NCBI GenBank assembly: GCA_902596975.1
Contig: CACJWS010000002.1
Location: 1 to 64,000 of the forward strand
Direction: 5' to 3'
DNA length: 64,000 nucleotides
Origin: an uncultured Pelagibacteraceae bacterium
Lineage (GTDB): Bacteria > Pseudomonadota > Alphaproteobacteria > Pelagibacterales > Pelagibacteraceae
Of the stretch, positions 60,285 through 62,012 are shown piece by piece; position 1 is the first letter of the stretch; each line of letters starts with the position of its first letter. The notes under the pieces were generated by a model. That model was not told the DNA's origin. It worked only from the letters and a program-made list of their open reading frames with translations, and did no database searches. The translations under genes were made by a program, and so were the position numbers.

Positions 60285-60857
60285 ATGAAAAAAATTATTG
60301 CTGGGGTTGATGAAGTTGGAAGAGGAAGCCTTGTAGGACCAGTTTATGCAGCTGCTGTTATATTAAATAAAGAAATTAATAGAAAAATTCTTAAAGATTC
60401 AAAAAAACTAAACAAAATTCAGAGGGAAACTCTAGCTAAATATATAAAAAAAAATTCAGTTTGGGCGTTAGGATCTGCATCTATAAAGGAAATTGAAAAA
60501 ATTAATATTTTAAATGCTAGCCTACTTTCAATGAAAAGAGCAATTAAGAAACTCAAATTGAAACCTAAAAAAGTTTTAATAGATGGTAATAAACCACCAG
60601 ACTTAAAAAATTATGTAATTAAAACTATTGTAAAAGGTGATGAAAAAATTCCTGAAATTTCAGCCGCATCGATTATTGCTAAAGTTGAAAGAGATAAGCT
60701 AATGAAAAAGATGTCTTTTTCTTTTAAAAAATACGGCTGGGATAATAATGCAGGTTATGGAACTAAGGATCATATTAAAGCTATTAAAAAATTTGGAGTG
60801 ACTAGATTTCATAGAAAAACCTTCCAACCAATACACAAGATATTGAGTCTTAAATAA
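60285..60857 (+). CDS. rnhB: ribonuclease HII
   Basis: RNase HII removes ribonucleotides from DNA and RNA from RNA-DNA hybrids. The 190-residue product has AGVDEVGRGSLVGPVYAAAVIL (about 6-27, with the catalytic Asp-Glu), LKDSKKL, VLIDGNKPP (Asp about 99), KGDEKIPEISAASIIAKVERDKLM (about 121-144) and GYGTKDHI. A GAGTC site (60845) lies in its last codons, upstream of the ccrM promoter. Confidence 0.97.
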   Translation: MKKIIAGVDEVGRGSLVGPVYAAAVILNKEINRKILKDSKKLNKIQRETLAKYIKKNSVWALGSASIKEIEKINILNASLLSMKRAIKKLKLKPKKVLIDGNKPPDLKNYVIKTIVKGDEKIPEISAASIIAKVERDKLMKKMSFSFKKYGWDNNAGYGTKDHIKAIKKFGVTRFHRKTFQPIHKILSLK

Positions 60858-60896
60858 TAATCATAACAATTATCAAACAATAAATTCAATCACAGG

Positions 60897-60925
60897 TTGA
60901 CGTAGACTCCTGACTGGAGTCTAAT
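60897..60925 (+). promoter_or_regulatory. ccrM promoter with paired GANTC methylation sites
   Basis: The -35 TTGACG (60897-60902) and -10 TCTAAT (60920-60925) are separated by exactly 17 bp. Within and at the edge of the spacer are GACTC (60905-60909) and GAGTC (60917-60921), both GANTC sites for CcrM; the second shares two bases with the -10. They belong to the perfect inverted repeat TAGACTCC/GGAGTCTA (60903-60910 and 60916-60923, 5-bp loop). The start site near 60932 leaves a leader of about 7 bases. The gap 60858-60938 holds nothing else. Confidence 0.75.
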
Positions 60926-60938
60926 TCAAAAATATAAA

Positions 60939-62012
60939 ATGATCATTTCAGACATAAAAAATAAAATTATTAATGGAGATAGTATTAAGGAATTAAAAAA
61001 AATTCCGGCTGAAAGTTTTGATCTGATATTTGCAGATCCACCTTACAACCTTCAACTGAAAAAAGAATTAAGTCGACCTGATAGATCTAAAGTCGATGCT
61101 GTAGACGATGCGTGGGATAAATTTGATAGTTTTAAAAGTTATGATGAGTTTTCAGTTCAATGGCTTAAAGAATGTAAAAGAATTTTAAAAAAAAATGGAT
61201 CTATATGGGTCATAGGAAGTTATCATAATATTTTTAGAGTTGGTTCAAAAATGCAAGATTTAGGTTTTTGGATACTAAATGATGTGATTTGGAACAAAAA
61301 TAACCCTATGCCAAATTTTAGAGGAACACGTTTTACGAATGCACACGAAACACTTATATGGGCATCAAAAAGTGAAGGCTCAAAATATACTTTTAATTAT
61401 CAATCACTTAAATGTTTAAACGATGATCTACAGATGAGATCTACATGGAATTTACCTATATGTAATGGAAAAGAAAGACTTAAAAATAATGGTAATAAAG
61501 TTCACTCAACGCAAAAGCCAGAGTCTTTATTGCACAGAATTATATTAGCATCGTCTAATAAAGGCGATTTAATATTGGACCCGTTTCTCGGTACGGGAAC
61601 AACTGCTGTAGTTTCAAAAAAGTTAGGTAGAAATTATTTTGGGATAGAAAAAGAAAAAAACTATTTTGAAGCTGCAAGTAAAAGAATTAAAAATACAAAA
61701 ATTATAGAAGATGAATATTTAGATACTATAAAAAATAATAGATCCAAACCAAGAGTGCCATTTGGATCTTTGGTTGAATTAGGAATTATTAAACCTGGTA
61801 CTGAAATTTTTGATCAAAAAAAACAAATCAATGCGAAAATTATGATTGATGGTAGTATAAAATATCGGAAATCAGAAGGATCAATTCATAAAGTTGCTGC
61901 ACAAATATTAGGTGCTGAGAGCTGTAACGGTTGGACTTTTTGGTATTATAAATCAGGTAATTCACTCAAACCAATTGATGATTTGAGGCAAAGACTAAGG
62001 CCAACTACTTAA
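60939..62012 (+). CDS. ccrM: cell-cycle DNA adenine methyltransferase CcrM (GANTC-specific)
   Basis: CcrM methylates adenine in GANTC after replication and coordinates cell-cycle genes in alphaproteobacteria. The 357-residue beta-class enzyme has the catalytic ADPPYNL (about 31-37), WVIGSYHNIFRVG, MPNFRGTRFTNAHETLIWA, HSTQKPESLLHRII, the SAM loop LDPFLGTGTTAVVSKKLGRNYFGIE (split over about 212-236), and the C-terminal DNA-recognition domain PRVPFGSLVELGIIKPG to AESCNGWTFWYY (about 268-340) typical of CcrM. No restriction endonuclease is nearby, so it is a solitary methylase. Confidence 0.96.
   Translation: MIISDIKNKIINGDSIKELKKIPAESFDLIFADPPYNLQLKKELSRPDRSKVDAVDDAWDKFDSFKSYDEFSVQWLKECKRILKKNGSIWVIGSYHNIFRVGSKMQDLGFWILNDVIWNKNNPMPNFRGTRFTNAHETLIWASKSEGSKYTFNYQSLKCLNDDLQMRSTWNLPICNGKERLKNNGNKVHSTQKPESLLHRIILASSNKGDLILDPFLGTGTTAVVSKKLGRNYFGIEKEKNYFEAASKRIKNTKIIEDEYLDTIKNNRSKPRVPFGSLVELGIIKPGTEIFDQKKQINAKIMIDGSIKYRKSEGSIHKVAAQILGAESCNGWTFWYYKSGNSLKPIDDLRQRLRPTT

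Follow-up and report, generated by a model that had tools for sequence, protein, structure and literature searches.

The ccrM locus

The window, by which we mean the whole stretch of 64,000 nucleotides that was analysed, carries a gene identified by homology as ccrM, which encodes the GANTC adenine methyltransferase (Table 1). It belongs to a SAR11 genome; the CcrM encoded here and that of an uncultured Pelagibacteraceae bacterium (L161) are 100% identical. The best match of its protein is the NCBIfam CcrM model NF050803 (E 7.6e-175), with a score of 580.9 bits that falls short of the curated cut-off of 830 bits. The same-strand neighbour on the 5′ side is rnhB. An RNase HII-like frame end was also seen by eye in the sequences upstream of ccrM in many distant Alphaproteobacteria, and the rnhB-ccrM gene order looks old.

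A preliminary description of this DNA had placed in front of ccrM a promoter made of a −35 element, a 17-nt spacer, two GANTC sites and a −10 element, with a third GANTC in rnhB. These coordinates hold on the sequence: TTGACG and TCTAAT are separated by 17 nt (60903-60919), and the third site is found at 60845, in an rnhB frame ending at 60857. From the 13 nt between −10 and ATG a leader of about 5-7 nt can be predicted, implying a near-leaderless ccrM mRNA. TTCAATC, which lies 5′ of the ccrM −35, forms an imperfect palindrome with GGTTGA.

Table 1. Features of the rnhB-ccrM region and their conservation among Pelagibacter upstream sequences (rows)
Feature	Position	Strand	Evidence
rnhB, same-strand neighbour 5′ of ccrM	60285..60857	+	Pfam RNase_HII, NCBIfam ribonuclease HII
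Third GANTC, end of rnhB	60845..60849		GANTC 30-62 nt 5′ of TTGAC in 59/91 rows, which may partly reflect the RnhB C-terminus
TTCAATC box 5′ of −35	60885..60891	+	invariant in 91/91 distinct anchored rows
−35 element TTGACG	60897..60902	+	TTGAC-N20-TA in 105/108 loci examined
Perfect 8-bp inverted repeat, 5-nt loop	60903-60910 / 60916-60923		arms of 8 in 10/91 rows
Distal CcrM site GACTC, wholly within spacer	60905..60909		GANTC in 84/91 distinct rows
Proximal CcrM site GAGTC	60917..60921		last two bases overlap −10; GANTC in 90/91 rows
−10 element TCTAAT, 17-bp register	60920..60925	+	T-A-A-T after GAGTC in 91, 91, 90, 91 of 91 rows, the first two letters counting as conserved by anchor construction
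−10 to ATG, 13 nt	60926..60938	+	12 or 13 nt to next ATG in 87/91 rows
ccrM, GANTC adenine methyltransferase, 357 aa	60939..62012	+	NCBIfam NF050803, Pfam N6_N4_Mtase, RAMA

The register of the −10 is uncertain in Pelagibacter because the spacing between TTGAC and GANTC is 15. It can be read as TCTAAT after a 17-bp spacer, which puts C at −11, as CTAATT after 18 bp, with T at −11, or as TAATTC after 19 bp, with TA, and it is off the optimum in all three. A generic sigma70 scan returned two other sites (1.6 expected) and missed the ccrM promoter, since it demands that the second base of the −10 be A, and at ccrM this base is the C of GANTC.

GANTC is scarce in the window, with 89 sites against 177 expected from shuffles, about half. 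Four neighbouring pairs start at most 15 nt apart, and the pair of the ccrM promoter is among them. Seven of the 89 sites lie in the roughly 3.1 kb without long ORFs, that is 2.2 per kb compared to 1.3 in ORFs, a difference that rests on a rough ORF call. Published work reports that Pelagibacter GANTC sites are methylated with an ori-ter gradient (PMC9516812); methylation of GANTC in Pelagibacter is also described in PMC12570018.

Conservation of the GANTC sites in SAR11 and beyond

A ccrM match was obtained in 232 of the 300 genomes of the window's genus. The upstream regions compared come from 105 Pelagibacter loci with 91 distinct sequences: the 30 best matches (the window's own included), 40 loci hand-picked to spread over identity, L076 from the class search and 34 named-genome loci (L161-L193 and L198). 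TTGA(C) and TA served as anchors of the rows, and the conservation of these letters is therefore partly by construction; the anchor was missing in 3 of 108 loci. The row percentages flatter the pattern, because the other named SAR11 loci (L194-L197, L199-L210, L226 and L231) were excluded from the 91 as belonging to other genera once their upstream regions had been inspected, although L198, of similar identity, was kept. The count that is independent of promoter choice is 141 of 159 genus genomes (see below).

The proximal GANTC is present in 90 of the 91 distinct rows, always with G as N. The distal one is found in 84, at the window position in 57 and 1 bp downstream in 27, and its N is variable. 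Some other spacer columns, for example +6, +14 and +15 counted from the TTGAC start, carry almost no information; as the GANTC positions are conserved while these columns vary, chance is excluded. We are practically certain, from this comparison of sequences, that Pelagibacter ccrM is preceded by a selected, GANTC-bearing promoter.

The perfect 8-bp inverted repeat, reported in the preliminary description, is present. Among the 33 perfect repeats of the window (arms of at least 8, loops 3-8) it alone has at least four G+C per arm, and the stretch, taken as single-stranded DNA, folds at −8.6 kcal/mol (z −4.2). As the organising feature of the promoter it did not survive the comparison: arms of 8 bp occur in just 10 of 91 rows against 90 and 84 for the two sites, and most Pelagibacter rows have lost the dyad and kept GANTC, which rules the repeat out as a conserved unit. 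In the window the dyad is made up of GACTC opposite GAGTC, extended by three flanking pairs that also match, and it appears to be largely a by-product of the two facing sites. What selection keeps, judging from these rows, is the methylation sites and not the dyad. A dyad-binding factor is unlikely, as changes of the distal N and the 1-bp shift in 27 rows break the dyad and keep GANTC. Nor is the conserved spacer dyad of MerR-type promoters seen, with 8-bp arms at that same frequency. A search for Rho-independent terminators (GC-rich stem and T-run) gave 0 sites at 60700-61100, ruling out a terminator hairpin of rnhB.

Outside the genus, the exact two-site layout was found in none of 16 ccrM loci of other Pelagibacteraceae genera. 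GANTC lies there 3-5 nt after TTGAC in nine loci, five of which have a second site at 20, at 15 in two and only at 20 in one; in the remaining four (L077, L144, L145 and L148) no GANTC was found within 25 nt after TTGAC, and it has apparently been lost upstream of ccrM. In a second family of the SAR11 order, TTGAC-N14-GANTC was present in all ten loci examined, seven of them with the distal site as well. By these sequences, the ccrM GANTC layout is older than the genus.

The class was sampled with the best 87 of 200 matching genomes outside SAR11, which gave 81 loci after removal of near-duplicates. In these 81 loci, from the best 87 of 200 matches, the proximal site was found in 39, the distal in 51 and either in 57, compared to shuffle means of 0.16, 0.46 and 0.60, respectively; 24 had neither. 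The commonest distances from TTGAC to GANTC are 14 (37 loci) and 3-5 (18, 13 and 12). In all 37 loci with spacing 14, GANTC is followed directly by A and, at the fifth base, by T, that is −12 C, −11 A and −7 T with a 17-bp spacer in 37 of 37, which argues strongly that this is a genuine promoter whose GANTC occupies −16 to −12. The proximal site thins with distance in the class set, from 19 of the first 27 to 17 of the next 40 and 5 of the last 20. Among named loci outside SAR11 the layout occurs in 18 of 28, with 7/7 in Rhodobacteraceae, 7/7 in Sphingomonadales (some of them congeners) and 1/8 in Hyphomicrobiales; these groups were assigned partly from record titles, Rhodobiaceae being counted as Hyphomicrobiales.

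Range of the layout and candidate regulators

The layout is nearly private to ccrM. Of the 247 genomes of the order, 142 contain TTGACN14-15GANTCTAAT, namely 141/159 in the window's genus, 1/35 in other genera of the family and 0/53 in the second family, which has a different form of its own, the matches being recognised by sequence with ccrM adjacency not confirmed one by one and the group counts made by hand. A single match was found in 134 of the 141 genus genomes and two in seven; for the reversed control the genus yielded 16 matches. In 22 genomes selected for carrying the class layout, its strict pattern gave 29 matches, 22 at ccrM and 7 elsewhere; the reversed control also gave 7, so that the pattern exceeds its control only at ccrM. 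The shorter pattern GANTCTAAT was not enriched over its reversed control in ten Pelagibacter genomes. These counts lend no support to a large set of Pelagibacter genes controlled through a −10 fused to GANTC, and no wider regulon of this layout backs a mechanism based on GcrA.

GcrA is encoded in the window's genome, and its match to the Caulobacter structures 7ye1, 5yiu and 5yix is strong in the DNA-binding domain and weak in the sigma-interacting domain (E 0.0007 to 0.004). A match to the GcrA family was found in 22 of 24 genomes tested, with a search that also matched the control Sulfolobus acidocaldarius. The two genomes in which no match was found (G296 and G540) are otherwise near-complete, and gene loss or an assembly gap may account for it; both keep the ccrM promoter, G540 in the N14 form. 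The layout is not shared by gcrA, since within the 120 nt upstream of this gene GANTC was found in 1 of 19 readable loci (of 22); the sites are thus not general to the ccrM/gcrA pair. Many of these SAR11 gcrA upstream regions (L001, L241-L261) carry, by eye, AT-rich strings like TTGTTRA.

GcrA is described as binding sigma domain 2, recognising methylated DNA and stimulating open complex formation at methylated promoters (PMC7403470). A YGAKTCK motif was proposed for C. crescentus GcrA, a preference not seen in B. subvibrioides (PMC7987155). Neither window site matches it on the + strand (AGACTCC and GGAGTCT), and the base before the proximal GAGTC is C in 5 of 91 Pelagibacter rows and T in none. 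In Ca. P. ubique, the same work predicts that very few of the conserved orthologs are controlled by GcrA (PMC7987155). Two features of GcrA promoters are found at ccrM: GANTC stands in or next to a sigma70-type core, the promoter being called from conservation, and GcrA is encoded in the window's genome, its second domain weak. As YGAKTCK is not matched, we describe the promoter as one that may work like a GcrA promoter, a candidate member of that class.

We agree with the preliminary description that no CtrA-type site is evident: TTAA-N6/7-TTAA occurs within 130 nt 5′ of ccrM in 4 of 91 Pelagibacter rows, which does not suggest a CtrA-controlled ccrM promoter. Pelagibacter is reported to be without a ctrA ortholog (PMC2877005; PMC7987155). 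Outside SAR11, full CtrA boxes were counted in 3 of the 57 class-sample loci that have a GANTC site and 3 of the 24 that have none, and in 2 of 18 named loci with the layout and 5 of the 10 others. These counts do not support a clean either-or of GANTC layout and CtrA box.

Proposed methylation feedback, its rivals and known systems

With GANTC sites fixed in the ccrM promoter and under selection, methylation feedback is the natural reading. The preliminary description had proposed it; the fixed positions, the encoded GcrA and the lack of a conserved CtrA box support it, but the inverted repeat as its organising feature is not supported. What is observed is a conserved architecture, nearly private to ccrM, and a GcrA encoded in most genomes tested; from this we infer a promoter used in vivo, with methylated sites, bound by GcrA and under positive control. 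In this dedicated ccrM promoter, CcrM would place one mark inside the spacer and another where the spacer meets the −10, the region in which domain 2 of the sigma factor melts DNA. Methylated or hemimethylated sites would, most likely, recruit GcrA, which would bind sigma70 and help to open an intrinsically poor −10, so that CcrM methylation would support transcription of ccrM; passage of the fork would leave the sites hemimethylated and thereby modulate it. A poor −10 beside a methylation site would be a target suited to a sigma-assisting activator. In the textbook Caulobacter circuit, methylation feedback on ccrM is routed via CtrA; SAR11 would use direct CcrM-GcrA control instead. As the promoter persists in the two genomes where no GcrA match was found, our confidence in activation by GcrA has been lowered slightly, and we now favour it by little more than an even chance. 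GANTC between −35 and −10 is given as the mark of one timed class of Caulobacter starts (PMC4287350), and the Caulobacter ftsZ promoter as most active when methylated (PMC3708114).

The main rival is negative feedback, in which full methylation weakens the promoter, hemimethylation after the fork relieves it and a pulse of CcrM shuts it again. We consider it rather unlikely, although the position of the sites inside the core promoter would suit it. In Caulobacter the ccrM GANTC sites lie 3′ of the promoter, and Stephens et al. in 1995 reportedly linked the two of them to promoter shut-off. A review associates hemimethylated sites at the Caulobacter ccrM promoter with raised ccrM expression (PMC10073500), and Caulobacter ctrA P1 is stated to require hemimethylation (PMC8116508). 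Set against this, the known reader, GcrA, is an activator (PMC7403470), and the ftsZ and mipZ promoters gain activity when methylated (PMC3708114).

The GANTC strings might also be retained simply for their role as sigma70 promoter or contact sequence, with methylation irrelevant. That the proximal N is always G in Pelagibacter, with nearly invariant flanks, goes beyond what methylation needs and would fit. However, the distal site is not a core element, yet its GANTC survives changes of N and a shift of 1 bp; the proximal N varies among the 37 class-sample loci with spacing 14 (C in 25, A in 11, T in 1); and the layout belongs, of all genes, to that of the methyltransferase. We thus hold this reading to be improbable.

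Still less probable is a dedicated regulator that binds the TTCAATC/−35 block and competes with CcrM, leaving hypomethylated sites and an epigenetic switch. Its attraction is that TTCAATC-N4-GTTGAC does not vary among the anchored rows and, in each of ten Pelagibacter genomes, has exactly one match, adjoining ccrM (1 in the reversed control). MucR-protected, hypomethylated GANTC promoters are known in Caulobacter (PMC5172544), and of the Pelagibacter sites that were unmethylated in every sample, 66.67% are intergenic (PMC9516812). The regulator itself is nevertheless putative only, and TTCAATC was not seen among the class loci inspected.

Control mainly by DnaA rather than GcrA where CtrA is absent is very improbable. 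DnaA motifs were predicted at ccrM chiefly where there is no CtrA motif (PMC2877005), and 7 of 18 named loci and 2 of 41 class loci have a DnaA-like box at most 40 nt 3′ of their proximal GANTC. No such box was found in the last 160 nt upstream at any of 105 Pelagibacter loci, so DnaA cannot explain the SAR11 promoter; in orders outside SAR11 it may add to ccrM control. The boxes near the proximal GANTC outside SAR11 were noted at L218, L219, L220, L228, L236, L237, L238, L275 and L285. As a guide to timing from chromosome position, GC skew over 20 stretches in each of two single-contig genomes gave no clear origin. In G012 and G082, taking the contigs as circular, about 0.27-0.28 Mb separate ccrM from the DnaA gene, although that gene does not necessarily coincide with the origin.

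Finally, the dyad as a functional unit, whether bound by a dimer, acting as a MerR-like spacer dyad or folding as a terminator hairpin of rnhB, is hardly credible despite its perfect arms, its stable fold and the 19-bp spacer that TAATTC as −10 would share with MerR-type promoters (PMC8113463), since 8-bp arms are seen in 10 of 91 rows, relatives lose the dyad yet keep GANTC, and 60700-61100 holds 0 terminator-like sites.

Judging from the conserved promoter, direct feedback of methylation on ccrM may be widespread in Alphaproteobacteria. A broader proposal, towards which we lean somewhat less than against, is that of an ancient one-gene class of epigenetic promoter, in which the methyltransferase's own site at −16 to −12 would be read by GcrA-sigma70 during melting and methylation would time itself; CtrA would be a later replacement in Hyphomicrobiales and Caulobacterales, and SAR11 would depend on the loop alone. 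The question addressed is how SAR11, among the most abundant cells of the ocean, time DNA methylation without CtrA, and with a conserved promoter that bears target sites of the methyltransferase it encodes, a direct answer can be put to the test. For Caulobacter, two GANTC sites at the ccrM promoter are already known (PMC10073500), and GANTC was sought 5′ of cell-cycle genes across the class (PMC2877005). None of the open-licence papers listed in literature searches describes a fixed, nearly ccrM-private core layout, in SAR11 or in the class, though a site table such as that of PMC2877005 may contain the GANTC of Pelagibacter ccrM.

Four known systems bear comparison. The CtrA-box ccrM promoters of Hyphomicrobiales concern the same gene; there the GANTC layout is seen in 1 of 8 named loci, and TTAA-N6/7-TTAA in 3 of the other 7. 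In the synthetic CcrM memory operon, CcrM methylation likewise feeds back on ccrM transcription; that operon is engineered and uses a zinc-finger repressor, whereas the SAR11 promoter is natural and its mark reader putative (PMC5458116). The ccrM promoter of Caulobacter crescentus shares the gene and two GANTC sites in the promoter region (PMC10073500), but it is activated by CtrA, whereas that of SAR11 is without a CtrA box and has its sites within the core. There is also a likeness to the methylated, GcrA-dependent sigma70 promoters of Caulobacter (ctrA P1 and mipZ, as well as CcrM-activated ftsZ), in which GANTC also lies in or beside the core, CcrM and GcrA are both encoded and the −35 is of sigma70 type. 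Unlike these, the SAR11 target is ccrM itself, with two fixed sites of which one is fused to the −10, and the ccrM layout is both nearly private to this one gene and common to several orders.
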